NCBI GenBank assembly: GCA_026706755.1
Contig: JAPOYG010000145.1
Location: 1 to 35,547 of the forward strand
From: Acidobacteriota bacterium
GTDB taxonomy: Bacteria; Acidobacteriota; Vicinamibacteria; Vicinamibacterales; UBA8438
Length of the DNA: 35,547 bases
Direction of reading: 5' to 3'
Below are positions 24,807 to 35,547 of the stretch, in pieces. A program made the position numbers and the translations under genes. The notes under the pieces were generated by a model. The model was not told the DNA's origin. It saw only the letters and a program-made list of their open reading frames with translations, and did not search any database. Positions within the stretch are counted from its first letter, which is position 1, and each line of letters starts with the position of its first letter.

Positions 24807-24851
24807 ATCATAGTGCGCGGCGGCCTGTCCCTGTCTGAAGATCCCCTGAAG
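24807..24851 (-). promoter_or_regulatory. DUF6152 promoter with CTTCAG direct repeats (regulator box)
   Basis: On the minus strand CTTCAG occurs at 24851-24846 and 24840-24835 (11-bp period), followed after 22 nt by the -10 TATGAT (24812-24807). The same layout precedes the MbnH-like and BtuB-like genes. The 11-bp direct repeat is what OmpR-family regulators commonly bind; the regulator encoded alongside is the natural candidate. Confidence 0.65.
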
Positions 24852-24932: not shown

Positions 24933-25640
24933 ATGGAGGCCACATCCGCAACGCAGCGGTTGCGCGCGCTGGTCGTCGAGGACGAGCCGAAGGTGGCGGC
25001 GGCCCTGCGGGAGGGGCTCGAAGGTGAAGGGTACGAGGTAGCCGTAGAGGGGTCCGGCGAGGCCGCGTTCTTCCGCCTGACCACCGACAGCTTCGACGTC
25101 GTGCTCCTCGACCTGCGGCTCCCGGGTCGGGACGGTATCGAGATCCTCTCGGCCGCCCGGCGGCGGGGTGTCGCGACGCCGGTCGTCGTGTTGACGGCGC
25201 GCGACACGCTGGAGGACAGGGTGATCGGCCTCGACGCGGGGGCCGACGACTACGTCGTCAAGCCGTTCGCCTTCGCCGAGTTGCTGGCCCGCATCCGCGC
25301 GGTCGTGCGGCGCGGCCGAACGGCCGAGCCCGCGCGCCTCGTGATCGACACCCTGGTCGTCGACCGCGTCTCGCGCCAGGTGACGCGCGCGGGCGAGGCG
25401 GTGGAGTTGACGGTGAAGGAATTCGACCTGCTGCTTCATCTGGCGCGCCACGCCCGACAGGTAGTTTCCCGCGACACGCTGGTCCGCGATGTGTGGCGGG
25501 AAACCTCCCGCAGCACGACGCTGGACAACGTGATCGACGTCCACGTGTCGCGCCTGCGGCGGAAGGTGGACACACAGCGGCCGGTCAAGCTGATCCACAC
25601 CGTGCGCGGCGTCGGGTTCGTGCTGCGGGAGGCCCAGTGA
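24933..25640 (+). CDS. OmpR-family response regulator
   Basis: This 235-aa DNA-binding response regulator has a receiver domain with acidic pocket VVEDE (16-18), phospho-acceptor Asp60 in VVLLDLRLPG, Thr in VVVLTARD and Lys in VVKPF. The C-terminal winged helix carries ELTVKEFDLLLHLARH, VSRDTLVRDVW, VIDVHVSRLRRKVD and IHTVRGVGFVL. I use ATG 24933; an in-frame ATG at 24894 is possible but lies at the predicted transcription start. The stop overlaps the sensor kinase start as GTGA. Two CTGAAG half-sites at 11-bp spacing lie upstream, and similar boxes precede three other transcription units nearby, suggesting it controls them and itself. The inducing signal is not evident. Confidence 0.95.
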   Translation: MEATSATQRLRALVVEDEPKVAAALREGLEGEGYEVAVEGSGEAAFFRLTTDSFDVVLLDLRLPGRDGIEILSAARRRGVATPVVVLTARDTLEDRVIGLDAGADDYVVKPFAFAELLARIRAVVRRGRTAEPARLVIDTLVVDRVSRQVTRAGEAVELTVKEFDLLLHLARHARQVVSRDTLVRDVWRETSRSTTLDNVIDVHVSRLRRKVDTQRPVKLIHTVRGVGFVLREAQ

Positions 25641-27055
25641 GCGGCCGCTGGTTGCCGCGCACGCTTCGCGTCCGGCTCACCGCCTGGCACGTCGCCGTGA
25701 TGGTCGTCGTGCTCGCGATCTACGTGACCGCCGTCCTGCTGATCGTGGCGCGCAATGCCTCGCGCGCCCTCGACGCGCGCCTGCGCAGTGATTTTCGATG
25801 GGCCGCGGGGATGGCGCAGCGGGACTCCGACGGTGCCCTCTCGTGGTTCGAGGGCGACCCGTGGAGCGAGGACAGCCCGTGGCTGCAGGTGTGGACGAAC
25901 GACGGAAGACTGATCTACCGGACGGCGGTCGCCCGGCGCCTCCCGGTACCGGCGAGCGAGGCGTTGCTCGACCGCGCCGACGGACGCATCGTGTCGCTGC
26001 CCAGCGAGCCCGCGCCGTTCCGCGTGCTGGGGCGGCGCGTCACCCTCGGCGGAGAGCCGGTCATCGCGCAGGTGGGGCGGTCGGAGGCGCTCATGCGCCA
26101 GGAGATCGCCGAGCTGGCCTTCGTGCTCCTGCTGGGACTGCCGCTGAGCGTGGTGGCGGCCGGCCTCGGGGGCTACTACCTGGCCCGCCGGGCGCTGGCG
26201 CCCCTGGCGCGGATGACGGACCGGGCGCGTGCCATTACGGCGTCGCGTCTCGGCGAGCGCCTGCCCATCGACGACCCGCAGGACGAGCTCGGACGCCTGG
26301 CGGTCGTGTTCAACGAGACGCTGGGCCGCCTGGAGGCGTCGTTCACCGAGATGCGGCGGTTCACGGCCAATGTCTCGCACGAGTTGCGCACGCCCTTGAC
26401 CGCGATTCGCAGCGTCGGCGAGGTGGGCCTGCGCGAGCCTCGCGACGCAGCGTCGTACCGGGCGGTGATCGAGAGCATGCTCGAGGAGGCGGATCGGCTG
26501 AGCTGCCTGGTCGATCAGCTGCTGACGGTGTCCCGGGCCGACGGCGGCGAGGGCGCGCGCGCCGGCCGCATCGACCTCGCGGACCTCGCCGAGAACGTGG
26601 CCGCCCACCTGGGAGTGCTCGCCGAGGAAAAGAGCCAGTCGATGGTCGTCGTGCGAGACGCCGCACCTGTCTGCCGCGGCGATCAGGTCGTTCTGCGGCA
26701 GGCGCTGATCAACCTGGTGGACAACGCGATCAAGTACACGCCCGCGGGCGGCCGCATCGAGCTCAGGGTGGCCGCGACGGAGGGGGAGGCGCTCCTGGAG
26801 GTGAGCGACAACGGTCCGGGTGTGGCGGACCGGCACGCGCCGCGACTGTTCGACCGCCTGTACCGGGCCGGAGACGGCGACCGGACCGACGCCGGGACAC
26901 CGGTACCGGACACGGTCGGCGCCGGACTCGGCCTGGCGCTTGCCCGCTGGGCGGTCGAGGCCAATCATGGGCGCCTCAGCTACCAGCCCGCGGACGGCCC
27001 CGGGAGCATCTTCCGCATCGTCTTGCCGGAGCACGCACGTGACATTCACCCATGA
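25637..27055 (+). CDS. Sensor histidine kinase
   Basis: This 472-aa membrane sensor kinase is the partner of the regulator. TM1 is at about 19-38 (VAVMVVVLAIYVTAVLLIVA), a periplasmic sensor segment of about 115 residues follows, and TM2 is at 158-182. A HAMP domain starts at RRALAPLARMTDRARAI. The H-box is VSHELRTPLTAIRS with His248, the N-box LINLVDNAIKYTP, then G1 SDNGPGV, LFDRLYR and GAGLGLALARW. The overall build is like CusS/heavy-metal-type sensors, but no metal motif is evident in the sensor region. GTG 25637 overlaps the regulator stop (GTGA) with GGGAGG just upstream, so translation is coupled. Confidence 0.94.
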   Translation: MSGRWLPRTLRVRLTAWHVAVMVVVLAIYVTAVLLIVARNASRALDARLRSDFRWAAGMAQRDSDGALSWFEGDPWSEDSPWLQVWTNDGRLIYRTAVARRLPVPASEALLDRADGRIVSLPSEPAPFRVLGRRVTLGGEPVIAQVGRSEALMRQEIAELAFVLLLGLPLSVVAAGLGGYYLARRALAPLARMTDRARAITASRLGERLPIDDPQDELGRLAVVFNETLGRLEASFTEMRRFTANVSHELRTPLTAIRSVGEVGLREPRDAASYRAVIESMLEEADRLSCLVDQLLTVSRADGGEGARAGRIDLADLAENVAAHLGVLAEEKSQSMVVVRDAAPVCRGDQVVLRQALINLVDNAIKYTPAGGRIELRVAATEGEALLEVSDNGPGVADRHAPRLFDRLYRAGDGDRTDAGTPVPDTVGAGLGLALARWAVEANHGRLSYQPADGPGSIFRIVLPEHARDIHP

Positions 27056-27130
27056 GGCCGCCGCCGTGGTTCGAGAGTGGAGGAACAGGCGCGGGACCCT
27101 GAGCCCGCCCGTGAGCGGGGGCGGCCGGCA

Positions 27131-28708
27131 ATGACGCAAACGGTCCTCCGGGGGCTGATTCTGCTGCACCGCTACCTCGGGATTCCGCTCGGCGTGCTCT
27201 TCGTAGTCTGGTTCGCCTCGGGCATCGTGATGATGTACACGGGCGACATGCCTCGCCTGACGCCCGAACGGCAGGTGGAGCGGCGTCCGCCGCTCGACCT
27301 CGCCGGGGTCGCCCTGTCGCCGGCCGCGGCGGCTCGACGGGCGCTCCTCGCGCCGGCCCCGCGCCGCGCCCTGCTTCTGACGGTGCTCGATCGGCCGGCC
27401 TACCGCTTCGACGGAGTGACCGTGTTCGCGGACACCGGGGAGCGCCTGGGGAAGGTCGGGCCGGCGGCGGCCGTTCGGGTCGCGAGTCGCTTCGCCGGCC
27501 TGCCGCTCGATGCCGTCGAGCACGTCCGCACCCTGGACGAGCCCGATCAGTGGACGCTCGTGGAACGAGGGCGGCTTCCGCTGCACCAGCTTCGGGTCGC
27601 CGACGCGGCCGGCACCGTCCTCTACGTCTCGCCTCGCACCGGCGAGGTCGTCCTGGAGACGACCAGGCGCAGCCGGGCGCTCGCCTGGCTCGGTGCGATC
27701 CCGCACTGGTTCTACTTCACCGCACTCCGCACGAACCAGCCGCTGTGGTCCGCCGTCGTCGTCTGGACGGCGACCCTCGGATGCGTGCTCGCGGTGCTCG
27801 GTCTCGCCCTCGGCGTGACGCAGTTCCGGTGGCGCACGCGCAGCAAGACCGCGCGCTCGGGCCGCGCCGGACCGCGGATCCCGTACGCAGGCTGGATGCG
27901 GTGGCACTACCTGACCGGCGTGGTCTTCGGCGTGGTGACGCTGACCTGGGTCTTCAGCGGCCTGCTCTCGATGGAACCCTACGCCTGGACGAGGGCGCGC
28001 GGCCTGGAAGTGCCGCCGGATGCGTTGGCCGGGGGAAGGCTCGATCTCACGCGCTTCCCGCCCGTCGATCCGCAGGCGTGGGCACGACTTGCGGAGGGGC
28101 GGGTCGTCAAGGAGATCGAGCTCCTGCGCGTTCAGGACGATCCGTACTACCTGATCCGCACGGTGCCGGGGCCGGATGGCGAGGCCTCGCCGCCGGGCTC
28201 CGGCCCGGCGGACCTGCTCGCGGCGGCCGACACGCTCGGGGTGCGAAGCGAGCCCTTCGACGTGGAGGCGCTGCTGGCGCGGTTGACGGCGGCGATTCCC
28301 GGGACGCCGATCGTCGCCTCCGAGCTCCTGCACGACTACGACGCCTACTACTACGCCCGGCGGAGCGCGGCGCCGCTGCCCGTGCTGCGGGTGAAGCTCG
28401 GCGACCCGCAGGAGACCTGGGTCTACGTCGACCCCGCACGAGGCAGGGTGGTCTCGAGCACACACCGGCTCGGCCGCGTCGAGCGGTGGCTCTTCAACGG
28501 CCTGCACAGCCTCGACTTCGCGTTCTGGTACGACCGCCGGCCGCTCTGGGACATCGGGCTCATCGTCCTGAGCCTTGGCGGCGTCGCATCGAGCGGCATC
28601 GGTCTCTGGATCGGCTGGGGCCGCGTGCGCCGGGCGATTGGTCGCGGCCTCCCGGCGCGGGCGGTTCGCACCGGGCGGGCGCGCGCGCGGGCTACTCCTC
28701 GTCGGTGA
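27131..28708 (+). CDS. PepSY-associated TM (PepSY_TM) membrane protein
   Basis: This 525-aa inner-membrane protein has four main membrane helices: LHRYLGIPLGVLFVVWFASGI near the N-terminus, VVVWTATLGCVLAVLGLAL, WHYLTGVVFGVVTLTWVFSG and IGLIVLSLGGVASSGIGLWI near the C-terminus. Two periplasmic PepSY-like segments lie between, for example LYVSPRTGEVV and WVYVDPARGRVV. The His in LHRY, WRWH-like and LHSLDF positions are typical of PepSY_TM proteins, some of which are heme-dependent ferric-siderophore reductases. It follows the sensor kinase by 75 nt and is probably in that operon. ATG 27131 is preferred over GTG 27077. The 3' end overlaps convergent hepT by 17 bp. Role here (metal or corrinoid reduction) is inference. 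Confidence 0.87.
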   Translation: MTQTVLRGLILLHRYLGIPLGVLFVVWFASGIVMMYTGDMPRLTPERQVERRPPLDLAGVALSPAAAARRALLAPAPRRALLLTVLDRPAYRFDGVTVFADTGERLGKVGPAAAVRVASRFAGLPLDAVEHVRTLDEPDQWTLVERGRLPLHQLRVADAAGTVLYVSPRTGEVVLETTRRSRALAWLGAIPHWFYFTALRTNQPLWSAVVVWTATLGCVLAVLGLALGVTQFRWRTRSKTARSGRAGPRIPYAGWMRWHYLTGVVFGVVTLTWVFSGLLSMEPYAWTRARGLEVPPDALAGGRLDLTRFPPVDPQAWARLAEGRVVKEIELLRVQDDPYYLIRTVPGPDGEASPPGSGPADLLAAADTLGVRSEPFDVEALLARLTAAIPGTPIVASELLHDYDAYYYARRSAAPLPVLRVKLGDPQETWVYVDPARGRVVSSTHRLGRVERWLFNGLHSLDFAFWYDRRPLWDIGLIVLSLGGVASSGIGLWIGWGRVRRAIGRGLPARAVRTGRARARATPRR

Positions 28709-29644: not shown

Positions 29645-29690
29645 GTTCAGCGAAACTTCAGTCTGCGACGGCACGCACCGCGGGTAGGAT
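29645..29690 (+). promoter_or_regulatory. MbnH-like gene promoter with CTTCAG direct repeats
   Basis: GTTCAG (29645-29650) and CTTCAG (29656-29661) repeat at 11 bp, followed after 23 nt by TAGGAT (29685-29690). The layout matches the boxes before the DUF6152 and BtuB-like genes. Predicted start is near 29697, with a 55-nt leader. Confidence 0.6.
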
Positions 29691-29751
29691 GCGGGGTCGT
29701 GGTGCGGTGCGGAGTGCGCGCGAGCGCACCGGGAGCGGCAGCGAGGTGGTC

Positions 29752-30927
29752 ATGCGACGGAGAGCGATGGTCGGAGCCGTGGTCGTGGCAGCGGCGGTGA
29801 CGGGGCTTGCGGCGCAGGGGCCGGATGCCGACGGCTACGATTGGAAGTTGCCGCCCGGCGTGTCGCCCCCGCGACTGCCCCTCGACGCTCCGATGACGAG
29901 CGAGCGAGTGGAGCTGGGCCGGCATCTCTTCTACGACACGCGGCTGTCGGGGAACGGCACGCAGTCGTGCGCGACGTGCCACATCCAGGCCCTGGCCTTC
30001 ACCGACGGCCGTGCGCAGGGGCTTGGATCGACGGGCGAGCGCCACCCGCGCAGTGCGATGTCGCTCGTCAACGTAGCCTATCGGGACGCGTTGACGTGGG
30101 CGGACCCCACGCTGCATTCGCTGGAGGAGCAGGCGCTGGTCCCGATGCTCGGGACGGACCCGGTCGAGCTGGGGCTGTCGGGGCACGAGCCCCGCGTCTA
30201 CGCGGCGCTGGCCGCCTCGCCGGTGTACCAACGCCTGTTCGCGGCGGCGTTCCCTCCTCCGCCCCCCGCCGACGCGCACGAGGACGGCATCGAGTCGCTC
30301 GTCACGACCCGCAACGTCGCGCTCGCCCTGGCCGCGTTCCAGCGCTCGATCATCTCGTTCCGGTCGCCGTACGACCGCTATCGCTTCCACGGAGACGAGG
30401 CGGCGCTCACGCCTGCGGCCCGCCGCGGGATGGCGCTCTTCTTCTCGCGCCGGGCGCGGTGCGGCGGCTGCCACCTGGGCCATACGGTGTCGACCGCGAT
30501 CGGCCTCAATCTGGACGGGGGGTCGAAGGCCTCGACGAGCCCGCTGAGCGACCCGCCGGTGTTCCTGTTCCACAACACCGGTCTCTACAATCTGCCCGGC
30601 CGGATGCCGTACCCGGCCGACAACACGGGCAAGTACGCCCATACCGGGAAGCTGGAGGACGCGGGCCGCTTTCGCATTCCGACGCTGCGCAACGTGGCCG
30701 TGACCGCTCCCTACATGCACGACGGGAGCATCGCGGCGCTCGGTGAGGTGCTCGACCACTACGTGGCCGGCGGACGCGCGCCGAATCCACAGCAGAGCGA
30801 GTCGATCCAGCCGTTGACGCTGCGCGACGACGAGCGCCGCGACCTCATCGCGTTCCTCCAGAGCCTGACCGACGAGGCGCTGTTGCGCGACCCGCGCTGG
30901 AGCGACCCCTGGAGCGTCGATCCGTAA
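29752..30927 (+). CDS. MbnH-like di-heme enzyme (MauG/cytochrome c peroxidase superfamily)
   Basis: This 391-aa exported di-heme c-type enzyme has a signal peptide (MRRRAMVGAVVVAAAVTGLAA). The N-terminal heme site CATCH is at 73-77 and the second CGGCH at 237-241. Stretches such as YDWKLPPGVSPPRLPLD, LFYDTRLSGNGTQSC, FTDGRAQGLGSTGERHPR and PMLGTDPVELGL fit the MbnH branch better than classical peroxidases. MbnH in methanotrophs oxidises a Trp in its partner MbnP, creating a copper site; no MbnP gene is in this window. ATG 29752 has GAGG at 5 nt. Promoter boxes suggest control by the nearby OmpR-type regulator. It converges on the BtuB-like gene. Confidence 0.83.
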   Translation: MRRRAMVGAVVVAAAVTGLAAQGPDADGYDWKLPPGVSPPRLPLDAPMTSERVELGRHLFYDTRLSGNGTQSCATCHIQALAFTDGRAQGLGSTGERHPRSAMSLVNVAYRDALTWADPTLHSLEEQALVPMLGTDPVELGLSGHEPRVYAALAASPVYQRLFAAAFPPPPPADAHEDGIESLVTTRNVALALAAFQRSIISFRSPYDRYRFHGDEAALTPAARRGMALFFSRRARCGGCHLGHTVSTAIGLNLDGGSKASTSPLSDPPVFLFHNTGLYNLPGRMPYPADNTGKYAHTGKLEDAGRFRIPTLRNVAVTAPYMHDGSIAALGEVLDHYVAGGRAPNPQQSESIQPLTLRDDERRDLIAFLQSLTDEALLRDPRWSDPWSVDP

Positions 30928-30991: not shown

Positions 30992-33352
30992 TCAGCCCCC
31001 GATCTCGAAGCGGCCGCCCGCCATGACGGCCCGCGGCAGGCCGGGATACCCGAGGGCGCCCTCGTACGCCTCGTCCGTCAGGTTCTCGACGCGCAGGAAG
31101 AGCGTGAAGTCGTTCCGCACCCGGAGCTGCCCGCCTACGCCGAGCAGGACGTAGCCCGGATTGACGGTGATGTCGACCGGGCGGCCGTCGGAGAGCCGCT
31201 GGAGCCCGAGGAATGCGCTGTCGTGGCGGTCGCCGGTCACCCGCACGTTCAGGTGCAGGCTGCCGCGGCCGCGCGCGTAGTCGACCCGCGCGCCGCCGGA
31301 GTGCCGGGGCCGGCGGAGCAGCGGCTGCCCCGGCTGGAACTGCTGGCTGGTGCTCACGTTGGTGACGACCTCGGTGTCGACGAGGGCGTACCAGGCGCTC
31401 GCGGTCAGGCCGCCCAGTGGCCGCTCCAGGCCGGATTCGAGCTCCAGGCCGGACGCCCGCGACCCGTCGATGTTCACGTAGTCGGGAACGCCGTCCCCTC
31501 CGAATCCCAGGGAGGGCGAGTAGGCGATCTGGTCGGTGTAGTCGTTGGCGAACCAGGTGACGCGGGCCAGCCAGCGCTGATCGTCGAACGTGAACTCCGC
31601 CCCCGCGTCGATGGAGACGGCCTGCTCGGGCTGCAGCAACAGGTCGCCGTCGACCCACTGCGAGCCGTAGATCTGCGAGAAGCTCGGGTTCTTGATGCCG
31701 CGGCCGACGTTCGCGGACAGCCGAACCGACGACAGCGCCCCGGATCGGTACGGCAGCGGGTAGCCGCCCGCGGAGAGCTTCGGGTTGACCGCGGTTCCGT
31801 AGTGGGCGTTGTCGTCGATGCGCGCCCCGCCGGTGACGAACCAGGCGTCCGCGAGATTGAGCTGCTGCTGCACGAAGTACGAGTGGTTCTCCACCCGCTG
31901 CAGTTCCTCGAGCGCGTTCGTCTCGCGGTAGTAGTCGTAGCCCGCGCTCAGCACCTGGCTGTCCATCCACGTCGCGTTGATCTGGTAGCGGACGGAGGGG
32001 CGGCGGAACTGCGTCTCGAAGGTGAACGGGTAGTCGTAGCCGCTGAACGGGCCGCTCCGGGCCAGGAACTGCCCGCCGGGGAGGCTCGACGGATCGGCCG
32101 CCAGCGCATCGAACTCCCGCTGATCGAGCAGGCGCACGAGTCGCGTTCCGGCCGGGTACAGCGCTCCCGGCTCGCCGGCGAGGATCGCGCGCACGAGCTG
32201 GCGCGGATCGCCGATCGCGTCCGCCGACTGGCGTCCGGATCGGAAGTAGCTCACCGTGGCCGCGTGGTCCACGCGCGACGAGAGCTGCTGGTCGAGGTCG
32301 ACGTGCCACGACAGGTCGTCCGTGTCGTAGCTCGTGCCGGTGTCGCCCGCCGTGTAGGCGATGGGCCCCACGGAGTTGGCACGGGCGTCGCTGTGGCGGA
32401 CGCCGGTGCGCAGTCGGGTGTTGTCGCCCAGGATGGCGCCGACGTTGGCATCGACCGTGGTCTGGTCGAAGCGATCGGGGTCGGCGAGGCGGTCTCCGAA
32501 AGCGCCGTCCGTGCCCCGGTAGGTGACCCCGAGCTGGTAGTCGACGCGTCGACTGGCGCCCCCGAGCAGGCGCAGATCGCCGCGCGACGTGCCGAACGAG
32601 CCGCCCTCGACGGAACCCGACAGGCCGGGCCCGCTGTCGGGCGCGCCCCGCTTCGTGAAGATCTGAATCACGGAGCCCATGGCGTCCGAGCCGTAGAGTG
32701 CGGACTGGGCTCCCCGCACCACCTCGACCCGTTCGATCTCGGACGCCGAGACTCGGCCGAAGTCGTAGTAGCCCCCGTTGGCGTTCACCCGCACGCCATC
32801 GATCAGCACGTGGTTGTAATCCGACTCCCCGCCGCGGGAGAAGAGCGACGACAGGCTTCCCTCGCGTCCGGTCGCCTCGATGCTCAGGCCGGGCACGTGC
32901 CGGAGCACGTCCGCCACGGAGGAGCTGCCGAGCGTCTGGATCTCCTCCGCGGTGAGGACGGCGTGGGACTCCATGACGGAGGCGCGCCCCTCCGCCGTCC
33001 GCGACGCCGTCACGATGATCGAGTCCCGCAGGGGAGCGATGTCGAGGCTAAAGTCGGCGGTCCCGGCTCCGGCAGCGGTCACCTCGGTCTCGCCGGCCGC
33101 GAAGCCGTCGAGGTGCGCGGTCACGAGGTAGACGCCCTCCGACGGCAGATCGAGGCGGTAGCCGCCGTCCTGCCCGGTCGATGTGCCGGCGACGACGCGG
33201 AGGCCGCGCAGAGCCGCGATCGACGCTCCCGGCAAGACGCCGCCCGACGAGTCGGTGACGACGCCGGTCACGGTGGCGGGAGCCTGCGCGGCGGCTGGCA
33301 AGACGGCCAGGGCCCACACGGCGAGGGCAGAGAGCGGAAGCGAACGGTTCAT
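30992..33352 (-). CDS. btuB: BtuB-like TonB-dependent receptor (corrinoid/tetrapyrrole)
   Basis: This 786-aa outer-membrane receptor has a signal peptide (MNRSLPLSALAVWALAVLPAAA), a carboxypeptidase-regulatory-like domain (about 25-100) and a TonB-box-like DSIIVTASR. The plug has VADVLRHVPGLSIEATG, VLIDGVRVNANGGYYDFG and IERVEVVRGAQSALYGSDAMG, a BtuB-style arrangement. A 22-strand-type barrel follows, with FLRVENLTDEAYEGALGYPG near the end; the last residue is Gly rather than the usual aromatic. ATG 33352 has GAGGAG at 8 nt. The leader carries a cobalamin riboswitch, which supports corrinoid as substrate, plus a regulator-box promoter. An ExbB/DUF2149 module is divergent. Heme or another tetrapyrrole cannot be excluded by sequence alone. 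Confidence 0.88.
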   Translation of the reverse strand: MNRSLPLSALAVWALAVLPAAAQAPATVTGVVTDSSGGVLPGASIAALRGLRVVAGTSTGQDGGYRLDLPSEGVYLVTAHLDGFAAGETEVTAAGAGTADFSLDIAPLRDSIIVTASRTAEGRASVMESHAVLTAEEIQTLGSSSVADVLRHVPGLSIEATGREGSLSSLFSRGGESDYNHVLIDGVRVNANGGYYDFGRVSASEIERVEVVRGAQSALYGSDAMGSVIQIFTKRGAPDSGPGLSGSVEGGSFGTSRGDLRLLGGASRRVDYQLGVTYRGTDGAFGDRLADPDRFDQTTVDANVGAILGDNTRLRTGVRHSDARANSVGPIAYTAGDTGTSYDTDDLSWHVDLDQQLSSRVDHAATVSYFRSGRQSADAIGDPRQLVRAILAGEPGALYPAGTRLVRLLDQREFDALAADPSSLPGGQFLARSGPFSGYDYPFTFETQFRRPSVRYQINATWMDSQVLSAGYDYYRETNALEELQRVENHSYFVQQQLNLADAWFVTGGARIDDNAHYGTAVNPKLSAGGYPLPYRSGALSSVRLSANVGRGIKNPSFSQIYGSQWVDGDLLLQPEQAVSIDAGAEFTFDDQRWLARVTWFANDYTDQIAYSPSLGFGGDGVPDYVNIDGSRASGLELESGLERPLGGLTASAWYALVDTEVVTNVSTSQQFQPGQPLLRRPRHSGGARVDYARGRGSLHLNVRVTGDRHDSAFLGLQRLSDGRPVDITVNPGYVLLGVGGQLRVRNDFTLFLRVENLTDEAYEGALGYPGLPRAVMAGGRFEIGG

Positions 33353-33454
33353 GAGTACAGCTCCTCTCGTATCCGGGGCGGACGAGCGCGTACGCACGAC
33401 GAACGCGTGCGCACGGGTCGCCGAGTCAAGGCCCGGGATGATCGAGCCAGCCGG

Positions 33455-33510
33455 AGCGTACCGAACACCGCCCCGGCCGATCCTGAAGACCTACTGAAGA
33501 TTCCCTGAAG
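33455..33510 (-). promoter_or_regulatory. btuB proximal promoter with three CTTCAG direct repeats
   Basis: On the minus strand CTTCAG occurs at 33510-33505, 33499-33494 and 33488-33483 (period 11, then 11). After 22 nt comes TACGCT (33460-33455) as -10. The start would be near 33448, giving a leader of about 96 nt that lies entirely downstream of the riboswitch. This is the strongest of the four boxes. Confidence 0.65.
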
Positions 33511-33544
33511 ATTGCCTGCCCGGCGGGTGCCGCTGGCGGATCAC
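33491..33544 (-). CDS. Possible 17-codon leader ORF downstream of the riboswitch
   Basis: GTG at 33544 is preceded by GAGGAGG at 5 nt and would encode MIRQRHPPGRQSSGNLQ before a TAG. It starts just after the riboswitch-adjacent hairpin and overlaps two of the regulator half-sites. It has no database-recognisable feature. It could be a translated leader peptide gated by the riboswitch, or chance. Confidence 0.3.
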   Translation of the reverse strand: MIRQRHPPGRQSSGNLQ

Positions 33545-33556
33545 CGGTTCCTCCTC

Positions 33557-33573
33557 GCCTCCCCTTCGGAGGC
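33557..33573 (-). promoter_or_regulatory. Hairpin of possible riboswitch expression platform
   Basis: On the minus strand GCCTCC pairs with GGAGGC around a GAAGG loop, 11 nt after the aptamer's P1. The GCCTCC arm could alternatively pair with the GAGGAGG just downstream, so it may gate that ribosome-binding site. Mechanism is inferred. Confidence 0.4.
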
Positions 33574-33584
33574 AGTCGTGAGGC

Positions 33585-33737
33585 GCGGCTGGATCGGTCT
33601 CCTGGCTTGCAGGATCGGCCTACTCTCCGCGTCTTCCCACCCGTTGCCGGGCAGTGACCTGGGTGCGGATTTCGTTCCTGCTCACAGTTGCGAGGGCAGC
33701 GCCGGCTTCGCACCGGACTTCCCGTGCATCCAGCCGC
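33585..33737 (-). ncRNA. Cobalamin (B12) riboswitch
   Basis: On the minus strand the aptamer is closed by P1 GCGGCTGGAT / ATCCAGCCGC (33737-33728 with 33594-33585). Core elements are in order: GGGAAGTCCGGTG, then CCTCGCAACTGTGAGC (the family's CGCAACTGT element), the CACTGCCCGGCAACGGGTGGGAAG arm and the B12 box AAGCCAGGAGACC. Order, spacing and about 153 nt length fit the class. It is transcribed from a TTGACA promoter and lies about 230 nt upstream of the BtuB-like start, implying repression by adenosyl- or other cobalamin. Confidence 0.92.
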
Positions 33738-33754
33738 AACCGCGTGGCGAACGA

Positions 33755-33784
33755 ACCTTAGGGCCGCGCGTGGCAACGTGTCAA
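33755..33784 (-). promoter_or_regulatory. Riboswitch/btuB distal promoter
   Basis: On the minus strand consensus TTGACA (33784-33779), 18 nt and TAAGGT (33760-33755) predict a start near 33748, about 11 nt before the aptamer P1. This transcript would include the whole riboswitch. Confidence 0.6.
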
Positions 33785-33799
33785 GCTGGGTACGGACAC

Positions 33800-33816
33800 C
33801 TGAAGTCTTCCTGAAT
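33800..33816. promoter_or_regulatory. Fourth regulator-like box in the divergent region
   Basis: CTGAAG (33800-33805) and CTGAAT (33811-33816) on the plus strand repeat at 11 bp. The site lies about 16 nt upstream of the distal btuB -35 and 160 nt before the membrane-protein gene. No -10 stands at the 22-23 nt distance on either strand, so its role is unclear. Confidence 0.35.
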
Positions 33817-33979
33817 TCGGGAGGCACGCCGCGCCTTCCGCTCGTGAGCGGGCGTCGTTGGCATAGACTTGCCGCGTCGACGGGCTGGGAACCTGCGCCG
33901 CCGCACGGGCCGCGCTCGGCCTCGCGCGAAACGCGGACTCCCAAACGAGCCGGACAGGGCGCTGGCGCCCCATCGCGTC

Positions 33980-34546
33980 GTGCTGGACGATGGACTAGGT
34001 CTGCTGTGTGCGCTCGGCGCGGCGGTGCTGGCCGCGGCTGCCGCCCGCCGGCGTGACGCCGTGGCGATGGCGGCCGGTTTCGGCGCCGCCGCCCTGTGGC
34101 TGCCGCCCGAGCCCGGGTTCACGGGCGCGGCCGTGGCGGTGGTGGCCGGGGCGGTCCTGGTTCGGCCGGGCCGCGTGCGGTTGGTGGGGGCGGCGGCCGC
34201 CGGACTGCTGGCCGGCACGTGGACGCACGTTCTGGCGGCGCACGGCTTCGCGCGGTGGAGCGCCTGGCTGTTGGCGGCCGGCGTCGTGGCGGTTTCGGCG
34301 GCCGCAGCGCGCCGCAGTCCGCGCTTCGCGCCGCGAGCGATTCGCGAGGAGGCGCTCGCCGTGCTCGCCGTGGGAGCCTTGATAGTGGCTGCCGCCCCCG
34401 CGGTGGCCGCGGGGTGGAGCGCGGCGGAGGCGATGAACCTGAGGGCCGGCGACGTGAACCGGTCCGCGGTCCACCCCGTGGTGCTCGCGGTCCTGGGTGC
34501 GGTCGTGGCGCTCGGAGGCGCGCACGCGCTTCGGAGGCGTCAGTGA
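33980..34546 (+). CDS. Small polytopic membrane protein of unknown function
   Basis: I do not recognise this 188-aa protein. It is very hydrophobic and Ala/Val-rich, with about seven possible helices, including LGLLCALGAAVLAAAAA, FTGAAVAVVAGAVLV, LVGAAAAGLLAGTWTHVLAA, WLLAAGVVAVSAAAA, LAVLAVGALIVAAAPAVAAG and VVLAVLGAVVALGGAHAL. Arg-rich loops separate them. GTG 33980 (MLDDGLGLL) is the likely start; no ribosome-binding site precedes it. It overlaps the ExbB-like gene by GTGA with GGAGG upstream of that start, so the two are coupled. By position it could be an accessory or permease component of the tetrapyrrole uptake module. Confidence 0.65.
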   Translation: MLDDGLGLLCALGAAVLAAAAARRRDAVAMAAGFGAAALWLPPEPGFTGAAVAVVAGAVLVRPGRVRLVGAAAAGLLAGTWTHVLAAHGFARWSAWLLAAGVVAVSAAAARRSPRFAPRAIREEALAVLAVGALIVAAAPAVAAGWSAAEAMNLRAGDVNRSAVHPVVLAVLGAVVALGGAHALRRRQ

Positions 34547-35253
34547 ATCTGCTCGGGGCGCTCGAGAACGGCCTGTTCGCGTTGGCGCAGGTGCTGCGCC
34601 TGCCGGTCATCACCCTGCTCTGGGTAGCGGTCGGGGCGGCCGTCTTCATGGCGGGCGGGTGTGTGGTGGAGTGGCTCGCCCGCCGGCGTGAGCGCGCTGG
34701 GTTCAATCTCAACGCGTGGCTCGAGGCCGGAGCCGTGCTCGGCGCCGACGCCGCACGCCGTTCGGCGCTCCCTGCACCGCTGCGCGGTCTGCTCCGGGAT
34801 GTCGAAAGCGAGCGGCGGAAGCCGTCGTTCGGCGACGGAGGCCTCGAGCACCTCGTCCTCGAACGTGAGGAGCGGGTGAGGCGCACGCTGAACGGGTCGC
34901 GGGTGTTGGTCAAGGTCGGGCCGAGCCTGGGTCTGCTCGGGACCCTCATCCCGATGGGGACGGCGCTGGCTTCGCTGACTGCCGGCAACCTCGAGGCCAT
35001 GGCCGGCCAGATGGTCGTGGCTTTCACGACGACCATCGTGGGTCTGGCGGCGGGGACCGTCGCGTACGTCATTCAGGTCGTACGTCACGGCTGGGTCAAC
35101 GAGACCGTGCGGGAGCAGCGGTTCCTGGCCGAGCGCGTCGCCGGCGAGATCGCCCGCGGCGAGGCGGGTACGGACGCGGGCGCCCCGGCGCCGGGGGCCG
35201 CGCAGGAGGAACGGGACGATGGCGCGCTTTCTGCATCTGCCGTCGCCGGCTGA
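34543..35253 (+). CDS. MotA/TolQ/ExbB-type proton channel protein
   Basis: This 236-aa inner-membrane protein matches MotA/TolQ/ExbB proton channels. TM1 is LPVITLLWVAVGAAVFMAGGC, followed by a cytoplasmic helical region (LEREERVRRTLNGSRVLVK). Two C-terminal helices carry the family core GPSLGLLGTLIPMGTALASL and MVVAFTTTIVGLAAGTVAYVI. It likely powers TonB-type or analogous outer-membrane transport. GTG start overlaps the preceding stop (GTGA). DUF2149 follows with 35-nt overlap. This ExbB-DUF2149 pairing, as in HmuU/HmuV, is known beside CobN-like chelatases and TonB receptors. Confidence 0.88.
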   Translation: MNLLGALENGLFALAQVLRLPVITLLWVAVGAAVFMAGGCVVEWLARRRERAGFNLNAWLEAGAVLGADAARRSALPAPLRGLLRDVESERRKPSFGDGGLEHLVLEREERVRRTLNGSRVLVKVGPSLGLLGTLIPMGTALASLTAGNLEAMAGQMVVAFTTTIVGLAAGTVAYVIQVVRHGWVNETVREQRFLAERVAGEIARGEAGTDAGAPAPGAAQEERDDGALSASAVAG

Positions 35254-35547
35254 CGCCGAGGACGAGGATCCGCTGGCAGGTGTCGCCAACATCTTCGACG
35301 TGTCGGTCGTGTTCATCGTCGGCCTGATGATCACGCTCTTCTCCGTCTACCGCATCGGCGACCTGGTCGATCCGGAGAGCGAGGTCACGCTGGTCAAGAC
35401 GAACGCCGACGGCCTCAGCGAGATCATCATCAAGGAAGGCACGGAGATCACCGCCTACGAGCTCACCGGCGAGGCGCTCGGCGGTCAGGGCGAGCGCCTC
35501 GGCACGGCGTACCGCCTCGCCGACGGCCAGGTGATCTACGTGCCCGA
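35219..35547 (+). CDS. DUF2149 family protein (partial at window edge)
   Basis: The frame begins MARFLHLPSPADAEDEDPLAG with AGGAGG at about 9 nt, inside the 3' end of the ExbB-like gene. It has one membrane helix in NIFDVSVVFIVGLMITLFS, followed by a small periplasmic domain (GTEITAYELTGE, LGTAYRLADGQVIYVP). DUF2149 proteins take the place of ExbD/TolR-like partners of ExbB in tetrapyrrole uptake clusters (HmuV of Porphyromonas is an example). About 109 residues are visible; the typical C-terminus is near, so only a few codons are lost beyond the window. The ORF is missing from the track because it runs off the end. Confidence 0.85.
   Translation, partial: MARFLHLPSPADAEDEDPLAGVANIFDVSVVFIVGLMITLFSVYRIGDLVDPESEVTLVKTNADGLSEIIIKEGTEITAYELTGEALGGQGERLGTAYRLADGQVIYVP

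Follow-up and report, generated by a model that had tools for sequence, protein, structure and literature searches.

A BtuB-type receptor facing an ExbB-DUF2149-CobN module in an Acidobacteriota bacterium: a possible corrinoid counterpart of the Hmu heme system

What might a CobN-like chelatase be doing beside a TonB-dependent receptor that lies behind a cobalamin riboswitch? The question is raised by the right end of a 35,547-nucleotide stretch of DNA from an Acidobacteriota bacterium (assembly GCA_026706755.1, contig JAPOYG010000145.1, here C712), which at its full length is called the window below. A preliminary description of this DNA had named a receptor, a riboswitch, a small membrane protein, ExbB and DUF2149 at 30992-35547, and family searches confirmed the presence of all these parts. 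Comparison with other genomes and known systems led to a tentative reading, held at a little under even confidence, of the module as a corrinoid counterpart of the Hmu heme system that would act on the metal of imported corrinoids. The locus consists of the following parts:

30992-33352, minus strand: BtuB-type TonB-dependent receptor, 786 amino acids from ATG 33352, with a longer frame from GTG 33397; assigned by Pfam, NCBIfam and trees
33575-33748, minus strand: cobalamin riboswitch aptamer (RF00174) in the receptor leader
33980-34546, plus strand: small membrane protein, 188 amino acids from GTG 33980, the frame being open from TTG 33869
34543-35253, plus strand: ExbB/MotA/TolQ-type proton channel subunit, 236 amino acids (PF01618, E 4e-12)
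35219-35547, plus strand: DUF2149 protein (PF09919, E 3.5e-28), entering an assembly gap at the window edge
C712:36007-38738, outside the window, after DUF2149: CobN-like gene (PF02514)

The receptor gene is divergent from the operon of small membrane protein, ExbB and DUF2149. Exactly at the end of the window the contig enters a gap of 459 N; behind it the CobN-like frame opens at 36007 and is truncated at 38738 by the contig end. A cobN-like gene had been forecast just past 35547, and this fragment, matching PF02514 with 797 bits, bears the forecast out. In a genome of the same genus (G001, locus L039) the order receptor, riboswitch, membrane protein-ExbB-DUF2149-CobN was found with no gap and at 91-97% identity. 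The riboswitch match (88 bits against a gathering score of 31.5, E 1.2e-20) covered the whole model and is confined to the receptor leader, while the divergent module operon is not led by a riboswitch. This refines the first description.

The receptor carries plug (E 2.3e-24) and barrel (E 1.1e-30) domains according to Pfam. Its best NCBIfam model was TonB-B12, with 211 bits against 120 bits for TonB-hemin; this score lies under the TIGR01779 cut-off of 600 bits, though it was the best of all models. In a careful tree the receptor grouped with E. coli BtuB and with receptors linked to riboswitches or btuFCD (support 97/97), on the opposite side from HmuS-linked receptors, HmuR and FepA, and a quick receptor tree agreed on the BtuB placement. 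It had been predicted to group with BtuB/HmuR and not with siderophore receptors; of these it is BtuB that it joined, apart from HmuS-linked and siderophore receptors alike. Relatives with ~73-85% identity over the whole length were found directly behind cobalamin riboswitches in five genomes (L087-L091), and in two of them (L087 and L088) the close relative is flanked by btuF and btuC. By ancestry and context the receptor is of BtuB type, and corrinoid transport is predicted for it.

In the family of the window, DUF2149 occurs in two kinds of cluster, class A, to which the window belongs, and class B. The class A CobN-like protein, represented by that of G013, proved almost equally distant from CobN (466 bits) and HmuS (456 bits). 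A quick tree placed class A (19 rows), HmuS (8) and AAA-partnered CobN (5) each in one clade with support of 100, and the nearest neighbours of class A were proteins of Trichlorobacter lovleyi plasmid pSZ77 and of Runella (97, on long branches of this quick tree). Members of the clade to which the window's protein belongs come from Acidobacteriota and Sphingomonadales and are linked to ExbB-DUF2149. His-1209 of HmuS has been proposed as a metal ligand (PMC12583661); the corresponding residue is His in HmuS and in BchH of Sulfitobacter, and phmmer aligned a His there in ChlH, but it is Asp in AAA-partnered CobN and in complete class A relatives. The latter show LDNDDFFMYxGG in place of the HmuS motif LSLDHxxEFMGG. 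Class A keeps the HxGTHG motif with the exception of the G001 copy, and the fragment of the window shows an HxGTHG-type first motif and ends before the second. In the G001 locus HLGTPGPPEW stands where all other class A copies have HLGTHGTLEW, by decay or sequencing error. A diverged CobN-like protein beside ExbB-DUF2149 in another genome (L042, G061) has lost HxGxHG (VSLFSNIVL).

Hydropathy analysis revealed a C-terminal hydrophobic segment in the ExbB-DUF2149-linked proteins that reach the C-terminus, one class A member showing it weakly, and none in the AAA-linked CobN and BchH references. This contrast in membrane anchoring is partly known, since it has already been reported for HmuS versus CobN/ChlH (PMC13227078). 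No cobaltochelatase AAA subunit was found over the cut-off in the host genome (TIGR02442, best 51.8 bits against 779), as was the case in 12 of the 13 control genomes scanned with the same model. As identities for class A, canonical CobN (CobNST) was ruled out by partners, membrane anchor and tree, and HmuS by motif and separate clade. The HmuYRSTUV-type module with a CobN-like chelatase of the preliminary description was therefore right in ExbB, DUF2149 and the CobN-like gene, but the chelatase is not of HmuS type.

The single transmembrane helix of the DUF2149 protein contains an Asp conserved in all 18 sequences compared, archaeal ones included, and aligned with the Asp of ExbD; Runella DUF2149 has Glu at the acidic transmembrane position. 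Both features of an ExbB/ExbD-type motor were found, an ExbB-family channel and a single-helix partner with an acidic residue in the membrane. The structure model of DUF2149 was poor, with a predicted local distance difference test score (pLDDT) of 57. A canonical ExbD is encoded elsewhere in the host genome, and in T. lovleyi ExbB-DUF2149-CobN and a separate ExbB-ExbD-TonB set lie in one gene run between cobalamin clusters (see also PMC3403914). Methanosarcinales (L129-L135), which are without an outer membrane, carry ExbB-DUF2149 behind a DUF2162-like gene. No CobN-like gene was seen beside the archaeal pairs in the contigs read, so the archaea support only the occurrence of the pair without an outer membrane. 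In papers on the Hmu system the ExbB-DUF2149 pair is given the role of energising the receptor or transporting heme (PMC12583661, PMC13227078), and HmuV has been described as without homology (PMC13227078). Our inference is that the CobN-like protein is powered by ExbB-DUF2149, which would stand in for the AAA+ CobST.

The small membrane protein, encoded within 33869-34546, has several predicted helices and an uncertain start, probably GTG 33980. It belongs to no Pfam or NCBIfam family and is kept in class A loci, in the position of HmuT/DUF2162. A relative was modelled as seven helices (pLDDT 82), and a fold search with a fair model gave nothing at E < 0.001. Kinship with HmuT, DUF2162 or the NicO-like protein of Runella was rejected, all profile comparisons being null.

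A class B cluster is also present in the host genome, on contig C429 (L007). Its CobN-like protein matched the solved HmuS with 1257 bits and carries GALSLDHVYEFMGG, and the HmuS-linked receptor has TonB-hemin as best match. Judged by these matches, it is a true HmuS cluster, paralogous to the module of the window. It comprises the HmuS-type CobN, a kelch/PQQ propeller protein, the heme-type receptor and an ABC-type permease. A second HmuS-like gene begins at the contig end (C429:13093) and completes a tandem pair.

Corrinoid salvage by the host had been suggested, and the gene content agrees with it. Among B12-dependent enzymes, MetH (1538 bits) and methylmalonyl-CoA mutase (its B12 domain) are encoded, and CbiC/CobH, a marker of the corrin-ring pathway, was not found in the genome. 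A second riboswitch (97 bits) leads BtuC, BtuD and cobyric acid synthase (CbiP), and this operon adjoins BtuF-like, CbiB and CbiZ-like genes, the last assigned from a weak match to CbiS below the cut-off. The host is probably a B12 salvager by its gene content, one absent marker being no proof of auxotrophy.

Class A hosts include Acidobacteriota, Sphingomonadales and metagenome-assembled genomes (MAGs) labelled Gammaproteobacteria or Pseudomonadota, and class A operon receptors from several orders fell on the BtuB side of the tree. In Aurantiacibacter xanthus an uninterrupted run of genes on one strand encodes the receptor, PepSY, membrane protein, ExbB, DUF2149 and CobN, and the receptor matched TonB-B12 best, with 336 bits over its full length. 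This locus is the strongest support for a tie between class A and corrinoids outside the window's family. TonB-B12 was also the best match of class A receptors from Bryobacterales (161 bits) and G008 (218 bits). In G013 a riboswitch-led receptor lies beside btuF, while the receptor opposite the module is another one of BtuB type that has no riboswitch. On a plasmid of Runella slithyformis (L139), ExbB-DUF2149-CobN stands between the hydrogenase maturation genes hypF, hypC, hypD and hypE, and a NicO/DsbD-like protein in the slot of the small membrane protein hints at nickel. In many loci the 3' end of the class A cobN-like gene adjoins a gene, in either orientation, for a protein of ~390-440 amino acids, with no Pfam match in the four tested of these six loci:

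L034: 13065-14249
L037: 4660-5973
L040: 11675-12880
L124: 12494-13669
L125: 12487-13662
L127: 13734-14915

Among known systems, the Hmu heme system of Bacteroidota (hmuYRSTUV with the de-chelatase HmuS; PMC12583661, PDB 9d26) shows the same cluster of TonB receptor, anchored CobN-like protein, small membrane protein, ExbB and DUF2149. Unlike this system, the window has a BtuB-type receptor and a class A CobN-like protein without LSLDHxxEFMGG and in another clade, and its host keeps a separate HmuS cluster. A gene like hmuY was not found between receptor and CobN by position or size, all genes there having been identified or compared and no search with an HmuY model having been made. BtuS, a third type of CobN, goes back to a proposal of 2003 (cited in PMC6460266), and hmu-like operons with a cobalamin riboswitch were noted in Bacteroides (B. 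fragilis; PMC10100974). There, a CobN-like protein is tied to B12 regulation and a TonB receptor, as in the window, and tetrapyrrole salvage is proposed. The window differs by a clade of Acidobacteriota and Sphingomonadales and a riboswitch on the receptor alone, the B. fragilis proteins having been left out of the tree.

On pSZ77 of T. lovleyi, a TonB-dependent receptor, DUF2162, ExbB, DUF2149 and CobN lie between cobalamin genes with no CobS/CobT, and the cluster has been linked to cobalamin without CobST (PMC3403914). The pSZ77 CobN is a sister of class A and has the DNDD signature; the cluster differs by the extra ExbB-ExbD-TonB, by DUF2162 in place of the small membrane protein and by a receptor off the BtuB side. 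In P. aeruginosa PA1922-PA1925 (PMC4542158, PMC9431628) a TonB-dependent receptor, CobN-like, ExbB/ExbD-like and DUF2149 proteins are likewise encoded in one operon, likened here by description and not by sequence; unlike the window, it is controlled by Zur and zinc. With CobNST and ChlHID, class A shares the superfamily PF02514 and the HxGxHG motif, and its Asp signature is common to CobN. These enzymes are cytosolic and AAA+-driven, whereas class A is predicted to be membrane-anchored and is linked to ExbB-DUF2149. What is added here, by sequence comparison, is the separate clade with a CobN-type signature, the BtuB ancestry of receptors in several orders, the coexistence with an HmuS cluster and a shared repeat, described below.

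In the mechanism that we propose, the BtuB-type receptor would import corrinoids into the periplasm, as tree, riboswitch and neighbourhood suggest. The CobN-like protein, predicted from the sequences of complete relatives to start with a signal or membrane segment and to end in a membrane anchor, would be periplasmic, bind the corrinoid in the class I chelatase cleft and act on the bound metal. ExbB-DUF2149 would supply conformational work from the proton gradient; this pair is favoured as driver because ATP-driven CobS/CobT rings cannot reach the periplasm and no such partner was found over the cut-off. Most probably, imported corrinoids would thereby lose their metal or have it exchanged. 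The small membrane protein might pass the product inward, which is the weakest step, and usable cobamides would reach MetH and methylmalonyl-CoA mutase through BtuFCD.

The receptor and the module also share a direct repeat with a two-component operon located further upstream in the window:

33483-33510, plus strand: three-copy direct repeat CTGAAG-N5-CTGAAG with an 11-bp period, between riboswitch and receptor start
33800-33816, plus strand: CTGAAG-N5-CTGAAG with one mismatch, upstream of the module operon
24835-24851, plus strand: exact CTGAAG-N5-CTGAAG, upstream of the response regulator operon
24960-25640, plus strand: OmpR-type response regulator (Response_reg, Trans_reg_C)
25646-27055, plus strand: sensor histidine kinase (HAMP, HisKA, HATPase_c), with a longer frame opening at GTG 25493
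27077-28708, plus strand: PepSY_TM membrane protein (PF03929, E 7e-13), in the same operon as regulator and kinase

A fifth match in the window, with one mismatch, lies at 29645; the chance of the repeat was 0.06 per shuffled window with one mismatch allowed. Seven exact matches were counted genome-wide, and none for the reversed control. Outside the window, exact repeats occur only at C369:7250-7288, where four copies are arrayed at the end of an ATP-grasp-like frame, and at C412:1163-1179, preceding a PepSY gene. The repeat was also found near class A or BtuB-type receptors in G001, G006, G008, G011, G013 and G021. Relatives of the response regulator lie beside class A or BtuB-type genes in G001, G002, G006, G008 and L121, the last being a Vicinamibacteria MAG in which a related two-component system stands directly upstream of the module. 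A rare repeat is common to the two-component/PepSY operon (24960-28708), the receptor and the module; we infer that the response regulator binds it, and this OmpR-type protein likely controls both receptor and module. The start of the histidine kinase is uncertain. The PepSY_TM protein is a possible reductase candidate, and genes for PepSY proteins also lie next to the module at other class A loci. An AT-rich palindromic Fur/Zur-like operator was found between receptor and module in none of ten loci, the receptor-module intergenic region yielded no sigma-70 promoter or intrinsic terminator, and folding of the riboswitch/receptor leader showed no excess stability.

Two further neighbours lie between this operon and the receptor. 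A HepT-like/nucleotidyltransferase pair (PF01934, PF18765; 28692-29674, minus strand), likely a HEPN-MNT toxin-antitoxin module, sits between the PepSY gene and a di-heme protein of the MbnH family (29734-30927, plus strand; TIGR04039, 406 bits, over the cut-off). The latter adjoins the receptor, and relatives of it were found near class A in G001 and G013.

Corrinoid as the predicted substrate rests on association, and several points weigh against an action of the module on corrinoid metal. An enzyme that takes cobalt out of a corrinoid would, to our knowledge, be without precedent. The module operon is not led by the riboswitch, and class A loci mostly have none: among those examined, only the window and G001 have a riboswitch beside the receptor, and none of 16 further class A loci, some on short contigs, has any cobalamin riboswitch. 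In G008 a riboswitch lies more than 2 kb from the receptor, ahead of an ABC ATPase gene. Class A matches CobN hardly better than HmuS, the module-adjacent receptor of T. lovleyi has TonB-hemin as best match and does not lie on the BtuB side of the tree, and the related CobN-ExbB-DUF2149 operon of P. aeruginosa is zinc-controlled (PMC4542158). In its most specific form, as a class I chelatase or de-chelatase for corrinoids driven by the proton motive force outside the cytosol, with ExbB-DUF2149 replacing the AAA+ ring and cobalt removed or exchanged, the proposal is doubtful. A salvage relay without metal chemistry, in which the CobN-like protein binds corrinoids tightly and passes them on to BtuF while ExbB-DUF2149 opens and closes the CobN-derived cleft, would suit a riboswitch-led receptor made when B12 is scarce and cobalt removal would waste the vitamin. 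It also suits the B12-dependent enzymes and BtuFCD of the host, and a hand-over role has been suggested for HmuS in P. gingivalis too (PMC13227078). The catalytic HxGTHG motif is, however, retained in nearly all class A proteins, and G013, with a separate riboswitch-led receptor beside btuF and a second one without riboswitch facing the module, suggests a class A task beyond vitamin supply; we consider the relay rather unlikely.

The module may also act on another tetrapyrrole or metal complex, such as heme, zinc or nickel complexes, with the proximity of BtuB incidental or recent. The scarcity of riboswitches in class A loci would fit this, as would relatives under Zur in P. aeruginosa (PMC4542158, PMC9431628) or among the hydrogenase maturation genes of Runella, and the shared repeat ahead of the C412 PepSY gene, since such genes are frequently connected with iron uptake. 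Such a substrate is nevertheless unlikely, given that the host already has an HmuS cluster for heme, that the active-site signature is of CobN type and that class A receptors in several orders lie on the BtuB side. The CobN-type signature, which is that of an insertase and not of HmuS, could point to a periplasmic insertion of cobalt into scavenged metal-free corrinoids, making them usable to a host that needs cobalt corrinoids and lacks the ring-pathway marker. No sign of a cobalt supply to the periplasm was seen and the access of the host to metal-free corrinoids is uncertain, which makes insertion very unlikely.

That HmuS removes iron from heme was established as late as 2025, and for most of the chelatase superfamily no function has been assigned (PMC12583661). 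The locus described here ties one orphan chelatase clade, by association, to corrinoids in a host that is probably dependent on imported B12, and the class A protein and its heme-type paralogue, encoded in one genome, can be compared side by side. Linkage to ExbB-DUF2149 goes with membrane anchoring and linkage to AAA+ with a soluble protein, which offers a concrete hypothesis for the role of the DUF2149 family. If a proton motive force-driven chelatase of this kind exists, bacteria could mine B12 for its metal or change that metal, and if the module acts on cobalt, this would be a hitherto unrecognised step in cobamide cycling.

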